Below the pieces are notes generated by a model. The model did no database searches. It saw nothing but the letters and a program-made list of their open reading frames with translations, and was not told the DNA's origin. 64,000 bases of DNA, taken from positions 113,039 to 177,038 of the forward strand of contig JAHEYP010000004.1 in assembly GCA_023251535.1 (NCBI GenBank), written 5' to 3'. Positions 56,342 to 64,000 of this stretch are shown in pieces (within the stretch, counting starts at the first letter, position 1; every line of letters starts with the position of its first letter). A program made the translations under genes and the position numbers. This DNA comes from Bacteroidota bacterium. GTDB taxonomy: Bacteria > Bacteroidota > Bacteroidia > AKYH767-A > OLB10.

Positions 56342-56371
56342 TTTGATAATTCAAATTATTTATTACTTTTG
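56342..56371 (+). promoter_or_regulatory. Candidate promoter of cassette 1 A gene: TTTG-N18-TACTTTTG
   Basis: Match to Bacteroidetes TTTG/TAnnTTTG consensus ~65 nt upstream of the ATG at 56435. Confidence 0.55.
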
Positions 56372-56434: not shown

Positions 56435-56539
56435 ATGAAAACACAAAACACGTTTTCTCCAGAGCTAAACAGCTCCGAAATGACAGTCGCTAACAGTAAA
56501 ATGGGGGGGGGGTATTTACCTCAACCTAGCATCTCTTAA
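56435..56539 (+). CDS. Short ORF formed by the A1 start plus G10 tract: MKTQNTFSPELNSSEMTVANSKMGGGYLPQPSIS (OFF-phase product)
   Basis: ATG 56435 to TAA 56537-56539; same 34-codon structure in all three copies; out of frame with the following large ORF by one nucleotide. Confidence 0.6.
   Translation: MKTQNTFSPELNSSEMTVANSKMGGGYLPQPSIS
56503..56512 (+). repeat. Homopolymeric G tract (G10), A1 contingency-locus candidate
   Basis: AAAAT-GGGGGGGGGG-TATTTACC read directly. Confidence 0.95.
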
Positions 56540-56585
56540 AAGAAAGCCAAAGCGACGACGAACACCTTTAAATCTTCTAACTTCT

Positions 56586-58103
56586 ATGGCAATTACGATT
56601 GGAATATTTGTTTCAACAGCAACTTCGGCTCAGTTTACAAATGCAGTTATTGCCGATAATGTTTACTCGCTATCTACGACACCAACCATCGTTAATAATG
56701 ACATTTTAGATGACGGGAACGATACATATAGAGTTACAGCTTTTTCAGATGCCGTAGGACCTAGGTCAGGAATCATGTGGGAATGCAATTTTGCAGGTAA
56801 TTATTATACAGGAGATCTTCCTTTAAACTATTATAGCGTTTATAGCGGCGCAGTAGTAAATTATATCGATGTTAGTATTGTAAAAGACATAAACGTTATT
56901 CATGCTTTAGCCGTTTTTTCCGTTAATTCAATATATGGAAACCAATGGCTGTTGGAAGATTTTATTTGGAATGGCTCAGCATTTATCTCAAATCCTTCAA
57001 TTCCTCAGTGGAGCATAGCTTACGGAAACTTTGGAACCACCATACATATTGATGCCAATACCAATGGTGAGTTTATTGTGGTGTATGATGATGCTGGAGG
57101 GAATGTATATCATATAACTGGAATTTTAGCAGGTGGGATAAATCTGTTTGGCGTAATGACAGATTCGCAAAATAGCACGAATCCTGATGTAACAATTTCA
57201 CATGATTTATCTGGCAATTCATACATATACATGACATTTATTAACACTGGAATTCTAACCATCCAAGAAGATTATTTTTCTGTTGCAATGGGCTTTCCTA
57301 TTTTAAATCCGAACTCAATATTTAATAGCGGTATTATAGTCAGCAGACCTAGAATATCGAGCCCCAATATTTATGGAGGCGCTTTTGAATACGAAGTTGT
57401 ATACGAGTGCACTAATAATGCCCGTACCTATTATGAAATTCGCGGATACAATAATGCTTCGGCAATTGGATATAAATACAATATAGGAACTTTTGTACCG
57501 GGCGGTAATACTACCTCAGTACCTAACCATCATCCGGTTTTAGCTTATGATCAATACAATCATGTAAATGTGGGCTGGGTTTTAGATAATTCAACTGGGG
57601 CAATTTCGGGAGCATTTCAGTCGCATTATCCTATTGTTGTACCTTGCGACAATACTGGAACTCCAACTGTTTCTACTTATTGGGAAACACCACGACCGGG
57701 AGCCAATTTCGGCAACTATTTTAGCATACCTTACTTAGCGCTGTCGGGTAGACATTCTTTAACATATGATTCGACTTTTGTTTCGACTTATAGCCTTACA
57801 AATGCAGATTTTTTAACAAAGAGAGCAATCATAAATAGCGCAAGTAGCTTAAAAGTTGCAGATGTAAAAAATACATCTACAAATAACTTGCAGGTATTTA
57901 TCCAAACTGCCGATCCTTTAAGTAAATACAAAACTACTATTTGGAATACTGAAGGTCGAGAGGTATCTAGTCGTAATTTAAACTTAAGTGAAATAGAAAA
58001 TTTCATCAAATCGAATTTAGATAATTTGCCTAGCGGCATCTATTTCACCCGTTTAATTAACGACAAAAACCAAACTGCTTTCGCAGGAAAAATAAGCAAT
58101 TAA
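56586..58103 (+). CDS. Cassette protein A1: secreted protein with T9SS-type C-terminal domain; true ORF extends 5' through the G tract
   Basis: 505 aa annotated ORF; in the same frame the reading continues upstream as GGGIYLNLASLKRKPKRRRTPLNLLTSMAITIGIFVSTATSAQF; C-term KYKTTIWNTEGREVSSRNLNLSEIENFIKSNLDNLPSGIYFTRLINDKNQTAFAGKISN. Confidence 0.8.
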   Translation: MAITIGIFVSTATSAQFTNAVIADNVYSLSTTPTIVNNDILDDGNDTYRVTAFSDAVGPRSGIMWECNFAGNYYTGDLPLNYYSVYSGAVVNYIDVSIVKDINVIHALAVFSVNSIYGNQWLLEDFIWNGSAFISNPSIPQWSIAYGNFGTTIHIDANTNGEFIVVYDDAGGNVYHITGILAGGINLFGVMTDSQNSTNPDVTISHDLSGNSYIYMTFINTGILTIQEDYFSVAMGFPILNPNSIFNSGIIVSRPRISSPNIYGGAFEYEVVYECTNNARTYYEIRGYNNASAIGYKYNIGTFVPGGNTTSVPNHHPVLAYDQYNHVNVGWVLDNSTGAISGAFQSHYPIVVPCDNTGTPTVSTYWETPRPGANFGNYFSIPYLALSGRHSLTYDSTFVSTYSLTNADFLTKRAIINSASSLKVADVKNTSTNNLQVFIQTADPLSKYKTTIWNTEGREVSSRNLNLSEIENFIKSNLDNLPSGIYFTRLINDKNQTAFAGKISN

Positions 58104-58115
58104 TAATGTTAACCA

Positions 58116-58143
58116 CAGGCTACTGTAATTTTGCGGTAGCCTG
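58116..58143 (+). promoter_or_regulatory. RNA hairpin in A1-B1 spacer (attenuator/terminator/processing-site candidate)
   Basis: CAGGCTACTGTA-attt-TGCGGTAGCCTG, 12 bp including two G.U pairs; 55-nt intergenic spacer. Confidence 0.7.
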
Positions 58144-58158
58144 TAAATTTTTACAACT

Positions 58159-59865
58159 ATGAAACGCTCTACATTAGCAATAATTGTTGCTGTTATATAT
58201 ATGCCATTTTTCTCCAACGCTCAAATATTTGAAATTATCAAAAACAGATCATTAGGGACCATTGGATATGAAAATTATCCATCATTAATAGCTATAAATG
58301 ATCATGAATTAATTATGGCTTGCCGTACAGAAGGCGATATTGATGGCGACAAAACAGATCCAATTTGCGATGATATAACCCAACCTTTTCGGTCCGATAT
58401 TTGGTTGATAAAATTGGATACATCACTTAACATAATTTGGAATAAAAGTTTGGGTGGCTCCTTTACCGAAAGCGAACCCACTTTATTTTTTGACAAAACA
58501 ACTAATCATATAATAATTTCTTGCACTTCGACATCAGATTCTAGCTGCGAAAAAACCTCAAATAGTTGCGCAAGCTCTCCAGATTTATGGCTTATTGAAA
58601 CAGATACGAGTGGAATAATAATTAATAATCAAAGATATGGAGGCACCAGTGAAGAATATAGACCGGGTCAGCTAATAAACTCAAAAAGAGAACATTTAAT
58701 ATGGGGAGCCTCTAAATCACAAATTAGTGGTGACAAAAGCTCCGCGAATCATAGCAACCAATCGGATATCTGGTTAATTAAAACTGATTCTCTAGGCAAC
58801 AAGATTTGGGACAAATCAATTGGCGGCTTAGGGACTGAATTTGCAATTTCCATATATGGTTTGAGTTACAATCCATCACTAATACAAGATTCAACAGAAG
58901 CTAATTGCTTTATCGTTGGAAGCACAAATAGTCCAGTAGGCGGTGATATTACTCAAGCACCCAACCCTTCGTTTCCAACCCTAAGCAATTTATGGATTGC
59001 AAAAATTGATTCACTAGGCAACAAACTATGGGACAAAAGATATGTTGGATATATGGCTCCATTTATTAATTCATTTAAAACAGAAAATGACGGCTTGCTT
59101 ATAGGGACGGTAGGCCTTTCCGGTTTTGATTTAACTGACACAAACAAAACTATTAGTGCAGAAAATGCATGGCTATTAAAAACAGACTCTCTAGGAAATA
59201 AAATTTGGGATCATTTTTATGGAGGAAGTGGCATACCGGTAAACGGTATTGGAGCAAGTGAAAGAGCTCTAAGTAAAATCGAAAAAGCCATTGACGGAGG
59301 ATATATAGTTACTTGTACAACTAATAACGACATAGGTTTCGACATTTCCGAACCAACGTATGGAGGTATGGATTATTGGCTTTTTAAGATTGATGACAAT
59401 GGTAATAAATTATGGGACAAACGATTTGGAGGATCTAAAAACGACTTTTGCGCCGGCTTTGTCCAAATGCCAGATACTTCAATTTTTATTTATGGGCATT
59501 CAGAAGCAGGTGGAATAAACTCTATCAAAACTGATTCAGGTCATTTTTATCAAGACATCTGGATAGTTCATTTCAAATACCATGATACCACCACTGTAAC
59601 TTCGGTTAATTCAAATTTCGAGTTTGAGCAGGGAATTAGACTTTTCCCTAATCCTGCTACCAACTTCTGTACGGTGCAATCGAACAAAGAGCGCATCAAT
59701 AATGTAATGGTTTATAATACCCTTGGAGAGTTAATTGATGAAATCAAAACGCCTTCGACTACAAGTATTCAAATACCTCTAGCATCATATCCACCGGGCT
59801 TGTATTTTGCAACAATAAAAAGCGAACACCATATCGTCACAAAAAAACTAGTCATAAAGAATTAA
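58159..59865 (+). CDS. Cassette protein B1: secreted repeat protein with T9SS type A sorting domain
   Basis: 568 aa; SP MKRSTLAIIVAVIYMPFFSNAQ; recurrent DSLGNKIWDKSIGGLGTE/GNKLWDKRFGGSKNDFCAGF blocks; C-term IRLFPNPATNFCTVQSNKERINNVMVYNTLGELIDEI...PPGLYFATIKSEHHIVTKKLVIKN. Confidence 0.85.
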   Translation: MKRSTLAIIVAVIYMPFFSNAQIFEIIKNRSLGTIGYENYPSLIAINDHELIMACRTEGDIDGDKTDPICDDITQPFRSDIWLIKLDTSLNIIWNKSLGGSFTESEPTLFFDKTTNHIIISCTSTSDSSCEKTSNSCASSPDLWLIETDTSGIIINNQRYGGTSEEYRPGQLINSKREHLIWGASKSQISGDKSSANHSNQSDIWLIKTDSLGNKIWDKSIGGLGTEFAISIYGLSYNPSLIQDSTEANCFIVGSTNSPVGGDITQAPNPSFPTLSNLWIAKIDSLGNKLWDKRYVGYMAPFINSFKTENDGLLIGTVGLSGFDLTDTNKTISAENAWLLKTDSLGNKIWDHFYGGSGIPVNGIGASERALSKIEKAIDGGYIVTCTTNNDIGFDISEPTYGGMDYWLFKIDDNGNKLWDKRFGGSKNDFCAGFVQMPDTSIFIYGHSEAGGINSIKTDSGHFYQDIWIVHFKYHDTTTVTSVNSNFEFEQGIRLFPNPATNFCTVQSNKERINNVMVYNTLGELIDEIKTPSTTSIQIPLASYPPGLYFATIKSEHHIVTKKLVIKN

Positions 59866-59888: not shown

Positions 59889-59919
59889 TTTGTTTATTAA
59901 ATATTAGTACTTATATTTG
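59889..59919 (+). promoter_or_regulatory. Candidate promoter of cassette 2 A gene: TTTG-N19-TATATTTG
   Basis: Both elements match the Bacteroidetes consensus exactly with 19-nt spacer. Confidence 0.6.
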
Positions 59920-59982: not shown

Positions 59983-60087
59983 ATGAAAACACAAAACACG
60001 TTTTCTACAGAGCTAAACAGCTCCGAAATGACAGTCGCTAATAGTAAAATGGGGGGGGGGTATTTACCTCAGCCTAAATCCTCTTAA
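59983..60087 (+). CDS. Short OFF-phase ORF of A2: MKTQNTFSTELNSSEMTVANSKMGGGYLPQPKSS
   Basis: ATG 59983 to TAA 60085-60087. Confidence 0.6.
   Translation: MKTQNTFSTELNSSEMTVANSKMGGGYLPQPKSS
60051..60060 (+). repeat. Homopolymeric G tract (G10), A2
   Basis: AAAAT-GGGGGGGGGG-TATTTACC. Confidence 0.95.
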
Positions 60088-60133: not shown

Positions 60134-61657
60134 ATGGCAACAACAATCGGATTATTTGTTTCAACAGCAACTTCGGCTCAGTTCACAAATGCAGTTATTG
60201 CCGATAATCTTTACTCGCTATCTACTACACCAACCATCGTTAATAATGACATTTTAGATGACGGCAGCGATACTTATAGAGTTACATCCTTTTCAGACGC
60301 TGTAGGACCTCGTTCAGGAATTATGTGGGAATGCAATTTTGCAGGAAATTATTATACTGGTGATCTTCCATTAAATTATTATAGTATTTATAGCGGAGCC
60401 GTAGTAAACTATATTGATGTGAGTATTGTCAAGGATATAAATAGTAATGTTATTCATGCCTTAGCTGTTTTTTCTGTTAATTCTATTTATGGAAACCAAT
60501 GGTTGTTGGAAGATTTCATTTGGAATGGCACAGCATTTATCTCAAATCCTTCAATTCCTCAGTGGAGCATAGCTTATGGAAATTTTGGAACTACCATACA
60601 TATTGATGCTAATACCAATGGTGAGTTCATTGTGGTGTATGATGATGCGAATGGAGATTTGTATCATATAACAGGCTTATTAGCGGGGGAAGTGAATTTA
60701 TTTTCCTTGCAACCGTATAATTTACCTGGAATATCGCCTGATGTTACAATGTCACACGACAATTCAAATAATACTTACGTTTATTTAAGTTGTATTCGAA
60801 ATGGATTGATTTATATTTTGGATGACTTTTTTACAGTTACAAATACATCTCCTGCAACTAATTTAAATTTTTTGAGCAATCCTGGCGTTATTGTTTCACG
60901 ACCAAGGATATCTAGTCCAAATTCATTGGGAGGACCAAATGAATACGAGGTGGTATTTGAATGCACCAATAATGCACGAACCTATTACGAGATTCGAGGT
61001 TATAACAATGCGGCTGGATTTGGTTTCAGATATAATATTGGCACATTCGTACCTGGAGGAAATACAACTTCGGTTCCTAATCATCATCCTGTTGTGTCTT
61101 ACGACCAATATAACAACGTAAATGTGGGGTGGGTATTAGACAATTCTACCGGAGCAATTTCAGGAGCGTTTCAATCACATTATCCAATTGTAGTTCCTTG
61201 CGACAACACAGGAACACCAACTGTTTCTACATACTGGGAAACACCACGAGCAGGAGCCAATTTCGGCAACTATTTTAGCATTCCTTATTTAGCTCTATCA
61301 GGGCGACATTCATTTACAACAGATGACACCTATGTATCTACATATAGTCTTACGAATTCTGATTTTTTAACAAAATGGGCAACAATAAATAGTTCAAGTA
61401 GTTTGAAAATAGCCAATGTAAAAAACACTGTTACAAGCAACTTGCAAACCTTTATCCAAACTGCCGATCCCTTTAGTAAATACAAAACTACAATTTGGAA
61501 TACTGAAGGTCGAGAGGTATCTAGTCGTTATTTAAACTTAAGTGAAATAGAAAATTTCATCAAATCGAATTTAGATAATTTGCCTAGCGGCATCTATTTT
61601 ACTCGTTTATTTAACGACCAAAACCAAACTGCTTTTACAGGCAAAATTAACAACTAA
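60134..61657 (+). CDS. Cassette protein A2: paralog of A1
   Basis: 507 aa annotated ORF; upstream in-frame extension GIYLSLNPLKKKPKRRRSALNILSCMATTIGLFVSTATSAQF; ends near-identical to A1, centre divergent. Confidence 0.8.
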   Translation: MATTIGLFVSTATSAQFTNAVIADNLYSLSTTPTIVNNDILDDGSDTYRVTSFSDAVGPRSGIMWECNFAGNYYTGDLPLNYYSIYSGAVVNYIDVSIVKDINSNVIHALAVFSVNSIYGNQWLLEDFIWNGTAFISNPSIPQWSIAYGNFGTTIHIDANTNGEFIVVYDDANGDLYHITGLLAGEVNLFSLQPYNLPGISPDVTMSHDNSNNTYVYLSCIRNGLIYILDDFFTVTNTSPATNLNFLSNPGVIVSRPRISSPNSLGGPNEYEVVFECTNNARTYYEIRGYNNAAGFGFRYNIGTFVPGGNTTSVPNHHPVVSYDQYNNVNVGWVLDNSTGAISGAFQSHYPIVVPCDNTGTPTVSTYWETPRAGANFGNYFSIPYLALSGRHSFTTDDTYVSTYSLTNSDFLTKWATINSSSSLKIANVKNTVTSNLQTFIQTADPFSKYKTTIWNTEGREVSSRYLNLSEIENFIKSNLDNLPSGIYFTRLFNDQNQTAFTGKINN

Positions 61658-61670
61658 AAATTTCAACTTC

Positions 61671-61696
61671 AGGCAACTGCAAAATTGCAGTTGCCT
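61671..61696 (+). promoter_or_regulatory. RNA hairpin in A2-B2 spacer, co-varying with that of cassette 1
   Basis: AGGCAACTGCAA-aa-TTGCAGTTGCCT; spacer length 55 nt as in cassette 1. Confidence 0.7.
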
Positions 61697-61712: not shown

Positions 61713-63407
61713 ATGAAAAATATATTTATAGTAATTACTATAACGCTATTTCTTTTAACTTTACATTCCAACGCACAAGTTTTTGAAATCATTAAGAACA
61801 GAGCATTTGGAACAGTTGGGCATGAAATTTCCCCATCACTCATTTCAATAAATGACCACGAACTAATTATGGCTTGCAAAACGGATTGTGATTTAGACGG
61901 AGACAAAACAGATCCTATTTGTGATGACATAACTCAACCAGTAAGATCAGATATTTGGTTAGTGAAGATGGATACTGCTTTAAATATTATTTGGAATAGG
62001 AGCATTGGAGGTGCGTATACCGAAACCGAACCTAAGTTGATTTTCGATTCTATAAGCGGACACATTTTTATTGCATGTACTTCCATTTCAGATTCATCGT
62101 GCGATAAAACATCAAATAGTTTTGGAAATATCTCAGATTTTTGGGTTGTTGAATTAGATACTGCTGGCAATATTTTAAGTGAAAATCGATATGGTGGATT
62201 AAATCTAGAAGAAAGGCCATCTTTAGTTTATCTTCCTGACCGAAACCGATTAATATGTGGATATTCAAAATCATCCATAGGTGGCGACAAAACATCTGCA
62301 AACCATAGTACACAAAGTGACTTTTGGGTTATCAAAACAGACTCAATAGGTCAAATGATTTGGGATAAGTCATATGGAGGAACAGGATATGAGCTAAGTG
62401 GTTCCTCACCAGAATTCATTGAAAACACTTCAATATTTCTAGAAGATAGTTCATTTAATTTTTATTTATCCGGAGGAACGACTAGTCCTCAAAGTGGTGA
62501 CATTTCTCAACCACCATTAGTTGCTGGTCCAAATTATTGGTTAGCAAAGTTCGATTCATCCGGCAATAAAATATGGGATAAAAGATATTGTGGCACTATG
62601 GAAAGCCATTTTACCGTTTCAAAAAGTAATGACATGGGATTTGTCATATCTACCACTGGCGTTTCAGGCTTTGATATGACCGACACTAACAATGTCACAA
62701 ACAAATCTAATTTATGGGTAGCCAAACTAGATTCAATAGGAAACAAAAAATGGGATTACTTTTATGGAGGGAGTGGTTCTCCTGTAAATGGAATAGGATC
62801 TCAAGAAAGATTATCTTCATGTATCTCTAAAGTAAATAACGGGTATTTAATTTCTTGTACAACTTACAATGATTTAGGATATGAAATATCTGAAAATACA
62901 TATGGTGGGTGGGATTATTGGATAATAAAAATTGACGAAAACGGCAATAAAATTTGGGATAAACGTTTTGGAGGTTCAAAAAACGATGTTTGTGCCGGTT
63001 TTGTCCTAATTCCTGATTCATCATTATATATTTATGGATATTCTGATGCCGGAGGCGTAACAAGCATGAAAACCGATTCAGGTCATTTTTATCAAGACAT
63101 ATGGATTGTCCATTTCAAATACCATGATACTACCACTGTTACTTCTGTGAATTCTAGTTTTGAGTTTGAGCAGGGGATAAAACTTTTCCCTAATCCTGCA
63201 AACAATTTCTGCACCGTACAGTCGAGCAAAGAGCGCATCAACAGTGTATTAGTTTATAATACAATTGGAGAGTTAATCGATGAAATCAGGTCGCCTTCGG
63301 CTACAAGTATTCAAATTCCATTGGAAAACTTTCCTCCGGGGTTTTATTTCGTAACTGTTCAAAACGAGAATTATAGAATTACAAAAAAACTGGTGGTTTC
63401 TAGGTGA
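61713..63407 (+). CDS. Cassette protein B2: paralog of B1
   Basis: 564 aa; SP MKNIFIVITITLFLLTLHSNAQ; same repeat organisation and T9SS domain (IKLFPNPANNFCTVQSSKERINSVLVYNTIGELIDEI). Confidence 0.85.
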   Translation: MKNIFIVITITLFLLTLHSNAQVFEIIKNRAFGTVGHEISPSLISINDHELIMACKTDCDLDGDKTDPICDDITQPVRSDIWLVKMDTALNIIWNRSIGGAYTETEPKLIFDSISGHIFIACTSISDSSCDKTSNSFGNISDFWVVELDTAGNILSENRYGGLNLEERPSLVYLPDRNRLICGYSKSSIGGDKTSANHSTQSDFWVIKTDSIGQMIWDKSYGGTGYELSGSSPEFIENTSIFLEDSSFNFYLSGGTTSPQSGDISQPPLVAGPNYWLAKFDSSGNKIWDKRYCGTMESHFTVSKSNDMGFVISTTGVSGFDMTDTNNVTNKSNLWVAKLDSIGNKKWDYFYGGSGSPVNGIGSQERLSSCISKVNNGYLISCTTYNDLGYEISENTYGGWDYWIIKIDENGNKIWDKRFGGSKNDVCAGFVLIPDSSLYIYGYSDAGGVTSMKTDSGHFYQDIWIVHFKYHDTTTVTSVNSSFEFEQGIKLFPNPANNFCTVQSSKERINSVLVYNTIGELIDEIRSPSATSIQIPLENFPPGFYFVTVQNENYRITKKLVVSR

Positions 63408-63559: not shown

Positions 63560-63664
63560 ATGAAAACACAAAACACGTTTTCTCCAGAGCTAAACAGCTC
63601 CGAAATGACAGTCGCTAACAGTAAAATGGGGGGGGGGGGTTTACCTCAACCTAGCATCTCTTAA
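63560..63664 (+). CDS. Short OFF-phase ORF of A3: MKTQNTFSPELNSSEMTVANSKMGGGGLPQPSIS
   Basis: ATG 63560 to TAA 63662-63664. Confidence 0.6.
   Translation: MKTQNTFSPELNSSEMTVANSKMGGGGLPQPSIS
63628..63639 (+). repeat. Homopolymeric G tract (G12), A3
   Basis: AAAAT-GGGGGGGGGGGG-TTTACC. Confidence 0.95.
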
Positions 63665-63710: not shown

Positions 63711-64000
63711 ATGGCATTTACGATTGGAATATTTGTTACAACACCGACTTCGGCTCAGTTCACAAATGCAGTAATTGCCGACAATGTTTACTCGCTTACA
63801 ACTTACCCATCAATCGTAAATAACGATATATTAGATGATGGTAACAACACTTATAGAGTTACCGCCTTTTCCGATGCAGCAGGACCACGGTCAGGAATAA
63901 TGTGGGAATGCTTTTTTGCCGGCAATAATTATTCAGGTGATCTTCCATTAAACTATTATAGCGTATATAGCGGTGCAGTGGTAAATTATATTGATGTTAG
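63711..64000 (+). CDS. Cassette protein A3, 3'-truncated by window end
   Basis: Open from ATG 63711 (MAFTIGIFVTTPTSAQFTNAVIADNVYSLTTYPSIVNNDILDDGNNTYRVTAFSDAAGPRSGIMWECFFAG...) to base 64000; upstream in-frame extension VYLNLASLKRKSKRRRTPLNLLSS. Confidence 0.75.
   Translation, partial: MAFTIGIFVTTPTSAQFTNAVIADNVYSLTTYPSIVNNDILDDGNNTYRVTAFSDAAGPRSGIMWECFFAGNNYSGDLPLNYYSVYSGAVVNYIDV

Follow-up and report, generated by a model that had tools for sequence, protein, structure and literature searches.

A poly-G tract between a short leader and a signal peptide as a probable phase-variable switch of secreted proteins in Bacteroidota

In the neisserial opa genes, the repeats are located in the signal peptide. 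Homopolymer/SSR phase-variable genes for outer-membrane and surface proteins in Neisseria, Campylobacter and Helicobacter resemble the A genes, as interpreted here, in carrying their repeat close to the 5' end, switching by reading frame and occurring as several paralogues (PMC6321876, PMC2715451), but they belong to other phyla and use other export routes, whereas the cargo considered here is of the T9SS/SprB type and the G/C tract spans 9-17 bases. The closest described case is found in Bifidobacterium breve, in which the sortase-dependent pilus genes bbr_0113a/b and bbr_1889a/b carry intragenic G-tracts, G10 being the OFF state and G9 the ON state in which two ORFs are fused (PMC9187656). 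As proposed for the A genes, out-of-frame ORFs are joined when G10/G11 loses one base (-1+3n), the second ORF lacks a start of its own, the product is a surface structure and the default assembly is OFF (PMC9187656). However, the B. breve genes encode actinobacterial sortase pili, and in that work changes in tract length and the formation of pili were both measured, while the putative switch in the A genes involves a tract placed before the signal peptide and concerns a multi-copy family.

Among the Bacteroidota, the invertible promoters of Bacteroides also provide phase variation of surface structures, although through recombinase DNA inversion and not through tract slippage, and a review treats Bacteroides phase variation as DNA inversion (PMC11868660). 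The FSD adhesins of Ornithobacterium hominis share with the A genes their presence in the Bacteroidota, their multiple copies and a putative phase variation mechanism, but they form an unrelated protein family (PMC12139837). In a literature search of incomplete coverage, neither T9SS cargo nor SprB-type proteins were described as having homopolymer switches, a negative result of little weight; switches of this kind are already known, and it is the lineage and the cargo (T9SS/SprB-type) that appear to be new.

The window, that is, the whole stretch of 64,000 nucleotides that was analyzed, harbors three tandem cassettes, A1-B1, A2-B2 and A3, the last being truncated by the contig end. The first cassette comprises the following features:

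56343-56371, plus strand: A1 promoter-like element TTG-N18-TACTTTTG (motif match), 63-92 nt before the leader ATG
56435-56539, plus strand: A1 leader ORF, 34 aa from ATG to TAA, with start and frame kept in five copies
56503-56512, plus strand: A1 G10 tract, where the leader frame meets the body frame
56538-56561, plus strand: KRKPKRRR, which in the body frame would form the basic n-region of a signal peptide, with synonymous or conservative A1/A2 differences
56586-58103, plus strand: A1 body, 505 aa, secreted and beta-propeller-like; its match to the T9SS type A C-terminal domain falls just under the cut-off
58115-58144, plus strand: hairpin with a T-rich tail in the A1-B1 gap
58159-59865, plus strand: B1, 568 aa, SBBP-type propeller with a T9SS C-terminal domain, the partner gene

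The A1 leader reads MKTQNTFSPELNSSEMTVANSKMGGGYLPQPSIS and ends at the stop TAA 56537-56539. The original prediction had placed ATG 56435 one base out of frame with the secreted ORF, and re-reading at the base level confirmed a distance of 151 nt (1 mod 3) from ATG 56435 to ATG 56586; with G10, the frame opened by ATG 56435 closes after 34 aa at TAA 56537, the coordinates having been re-checked. The expectation that G9 or G12 would fuse the leader to the body was borne out by computed products of 555 aa (G9) and 556 aa (G12), and the proposed lack of ATG in the body frame between TGA 56481 and 56586 also extends to GTG, TTG and CTG. The leader and body frames are both open over an overlap of 53 nt, which contains the G10.

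Pattern searches of the genome, from which the genomic tract counts are taken, revealed seven G runs of at least 10, compared with 0.4-0.5 expected in 3.66 Mb under iid or first-order models, and five of the seven occupy this position of the A gene family. Over the first 56.4 kb of the window, G runs reach a length of 6 at most. As in homopolymer phase-variable genes, a tract beyond chance expectation is found at the point where its length sets the reading frame.

The genome contains six or seven copies of the A body in total, those outside the window being found on contigs C48, C70 and C42. The remaining features of the window are:

59890-59919, plus strand: A2 promoter-like element TTG-N19-TATATTTG (motif match)
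59983-60087, plus strand: A2 leader ORF, 34 aa
60051-60060, plus strand: A2 G10 tract
60134-61657, plus strand: A2 body, 507 aa
61671-61696, plus strand: hairpin in the A2-B2 gap, with a stem sequence unlike that of the A1-B1 gap
61713-63407, plus strand: B2, 564 aa
63467-63496, plus strand: A3 promoter-like element TTG-N19-TATATTTG (motif match)
63560-63664, plus strand: A3 leader ORF, 34 aa
63628-63639, plus strand: A3 G12 tract, without the TA that trails G10 in the other copies
63711-64000, plus strand: A3 body, incomplete at the contig end

All five readable leaders (A1, A2, A3 and those on C48 and C70) showed the same anatomy, the 151-nt offset and the out-of-frame register. The tract is G10 in four of them and G12 in A3, which keeps the register of the others because the TA after the tract is missing. 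The leader regions of A3 and C48 are identical except that the TA closing the tract in C48 is GG in A3 (63628-63641), a substitution that slippage and realignment could explain. Contig ends share 120-121 bases within the repeat, so we infer the cassette order, with one array apparently running from selD (C54) into C48 and another from phoH (C70) into C42; given these overlaps, two cassettes may have the A3 leader in common.

Outside this genome, an A homologue with a body about 30% identical was found in another genus of the same family (genome G019). Its leader differs, reading MIMYNKNQYPNCQSSCSKASRFTNMGGG and then ATG-G10-TAG in the leader frame, and its body frame reads WGGGSSLTNCALKEPNLRLKKRAKFRK followed by the signal peptide, with KKRAKFRK as the basic n-region. 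The tract is again G10 and the register is that of A1; judging from this comparison, the leader sequence is diverged between A1 and G019 with the device retained. Tract-free A homologues in three genomes (G015, G008 and G024) have an ordinary start with ATG and a signal peptide that is longer and basic. Additionally, a class-wide profile search of 395 genomes recovered further A homologues, none with a tract, and close relatives of the body were absent from the wider genome contig collection. The proposal that the G tract is the junction of leader and body gains support from the way the basic segment changes between copies, the G019 homologue, the tract-free relatives and about 20 similar genes presented below.

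The leader as an independent conserved peptide was considered and rejected, since no further DNA copy of it occurs in its own genome or in the 42 genomes of the order; the single short match, in G041, covers only 31 nt of the 5' UTR and the leader start. A degenerate leader-plus-G7 pattern gave 11 matches in the wider genome contigs, none of which, by eye, resembled an A relative.

Tract lengths were taken from assemblies and homopolymer calls are error-prone; besides, the deposited tract length in B. breve differed from the population majority (PMC9187656). An assembly error, with true tracts one base shorter or longer and genes plainly in frame, would nevertheless have to be repeated in five separate leaders that agree with each other and in the independent genome G019, which also has G10, and nine G's at this position would remain a slippage hotspot. 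This explanation is highly improbable.

If the tract is crossed, the signal peptide would consist of KRKPKRRR, a hydrophobic stretch and TSA/QF, as judged by eye and hydropathy. Within the 69 nt before ATG 56586, 17 sites distinguish A1 from A2, and in the body frame these differences are mostly synonymous or conservative (KRKPKRRR vs. KKKPKRRR). Their BLOSUM sum is +24 in the body frame, compared with -6 and -5 in the other two frames, and the comparison with relocated changes (P = 0.055) is suggestive only of a basic segment evolving as coding sequence in the body frame. The true start is probably not ATG 56586, because this codon lies inside the hydrophobic core and the signal peptide that it opens would lack a basic n-region. 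The natural N-terminus would instead include the basic segment and, as the body frame offers no start codon there, extend across the tract.

The body might instead start alone at ATG 56586, or at a non-standard codon, for instance ATT 56514, with the leader being an unrelated small upstream ORF. This ATG is kept in 5/5 copies and precedes a hydrophobic stretch and a cleavage-like site, but initiation there would lose a basic n-region that is coding-like in its changes and recurs in G019, and would leave a signal peptide unlike the longer, basic one of the tract-free homologues. The search for an alternative start codon in the body frame yielded none; ATT 56514 is not retained, being GTT in A3. 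In all five copies, a TTG-N18/19-TAnnTTTG element, which we take to be the Bacteroidota promoter type, was matched 63-93 nt 5' of the leader ATG, and the motif search found no TAnnTTTG-type promoter between leader and body in any of them. With the promoter-like element located only upstream of the leader, expression of the body most likely runs through the leader, and an own start of the body appears quite improbable. A scan for sigma-70-type promoters gave matches no commoner than in shuffles.

The A bodies showed dN/dS values of 0.11-0.25 at dS 0.25-1.3 and no stops in any copy, and on these values the family is under purifying selection and consists of maintained rather than decayed genes. 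Such values suggest that the A genes are used and that, at least on occasion, they yield their product. Against the Por_Secre_tail cut-off of 27 bits, A1 and A2 scored 25.8 and 23.0 bits (E about 1e-5 to 1e-4), while the partner B clearly exceeded it with 50 bits. The structure model of A, with a mean pLDDT of 64, matched sialidase-like and PLL-lectin structures in Foldseek (E about 1e-6, TM about 0.4), making a beta-propeller fold class probable. Moreover, the hairpins of the two A-B gaps (58115-58144 and 61671-61696) are strong (z of -5.2 and -6.4) and have the same shape with different stems; the T tail of the former is terminator-like, and these hairpins are possible attenuators between the paired genes.

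Altogether, the A genes are likely to be homopolymer contingency (phase-variable) genes in which slipped-strand mispairing gates secreted surface proteins, probably exported by the T9SS. Transcription would start at the promoter with elements 63-93 nt 5' of the leader ATG, and translation would begin at that ATG, or at an in-frame ATG/TTG abutting the tract, and cross the G tract before the signal peptide. With G10, or with the G12 of A3 lacking TA, the ribosome would meet the stop after 34 codons and the secreted protein would be absent (OFF), and this stop may also reduce expression of the downstream B gene by polarity. Slipped-strand mispairing during replication in living cells would then lengthen or shorten the tract by 1-2 bases, and G9 or G12 would join the frames into a pre-protein of approximately 555 aa whose n-region is long and whose Sec signal peptide is basic (ON); the T9SS would export it further. 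If so, individual cells of these bacteria would differ in surface composition and perhaps also in gliding, attachment and sensitivity to phages, and such genes would be prone to annotation with a wrong start or to splitting in two.

The best reading of the assembled genome is that it presents the A family in the OFF state. All six A-type leaders (five from this genome and the one from G019) are in the OFF register, and a random switch might be expected to include an ON copy among them, which counts against it. The same observation is the main point left for programmed recoding, in which the out-of-frame register is fixed and each cell makes a set full-length fraction, either by slippage of RNA polymerase or by a +1 shift of the ribosome on G10: the register is shared across two genera, and in A3 the length changed to G12 with the offset unchanged. 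These observations are mostly non-independent, however, because gene conversion within the array reduces the independent A cases to about three (the homogenised array, A3 and G019), so that the argument from a shared register is weak.

Further evidence bearing on recoding came from the G/C tracts of at least 9 bases read in 42 genomes of the order, which amounted to 144 distinct tracts. About 20 secreted-protein genes among them combine a short ATG leader, a tract, an n-region without an ATG of its own, a signal peptide and a long ORF, the leaders having about 2-25 codons (e.g., MKTTLIT-PPP and MKNLIT-PPPP). By mechanical criteria, 6-9% of the tracts qualified, compared with 0-0.4% of control sites within the tract-bearing loci, an enrichment of about 20-fold that tests position only, since the loci were selected for tracts. 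Registers were counted by hand, with entries unlike signal peptides set aside and with the start at -43 of locus L119, common to its paralogues, used over a more distant ATG; four genes were in frame, nine were shifted by 1 and seven by 2. This spread across all three phases argues for DNA slippage over a fixed programmed frameshift, and near-identical SprB paralogues that differ by one G likewise speak against recoding, which we regard as unlikely.

SprB repeats (PF13573) were detected in five of the wider-class bodies scanned. Genome G030, which is near-complete, carries the SprB-repeat paralogues L119, L154, L155 and L156 with identical leaders. Three SprB paralogues of this genome share 94-97% identity upstream of the tract and 95-96% downstream of it, with G10 ON, G10 ON and G9 OFF, and this set would represent the clearest case of a switch. 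The preferred reading, slipped-strand switching, may also extend beyond the A genes: we rate somewhat above even the likelihood that poly-G/poly-C phase variation occurs order-wide in T9SS-bearing bacteria, with a tract between leader and signal peptide gating T9SS-type/SprB-repeat surface proteins, often multi-copy, of which each cell would express a random subset.

In two more secreted families the tract lies inside or just 3' of the signal-peptide region, and both states were seen. A giant T9SS-domain protein of about 2,150 aa has G11 in frame in G010 and is out of frame in G011, where the tracts are G13 and G10, while a propeller family in G020 has tandem G10 OFF and G12 ON copies, the OFF copy having a second frame break. 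The sole in-frame copy of the giant protein (L111:2406-2416 in G010) has a stop at 2910, about 165 codons past the tract. An intergenic G10 was also observed about 30 nt 5' of the ATG of a sensor-kinase-like ORF (L031:2273-2282, contig C72 of G000), and it is possibly a promoter or 5' UTR tract. Finally, a T9SS-domain protein carries a mid-gene tract, G10 in L032/L074 (G000, contig C6) and G12 in L076 (G008), and both are in frame, with compensating bases after the tract.
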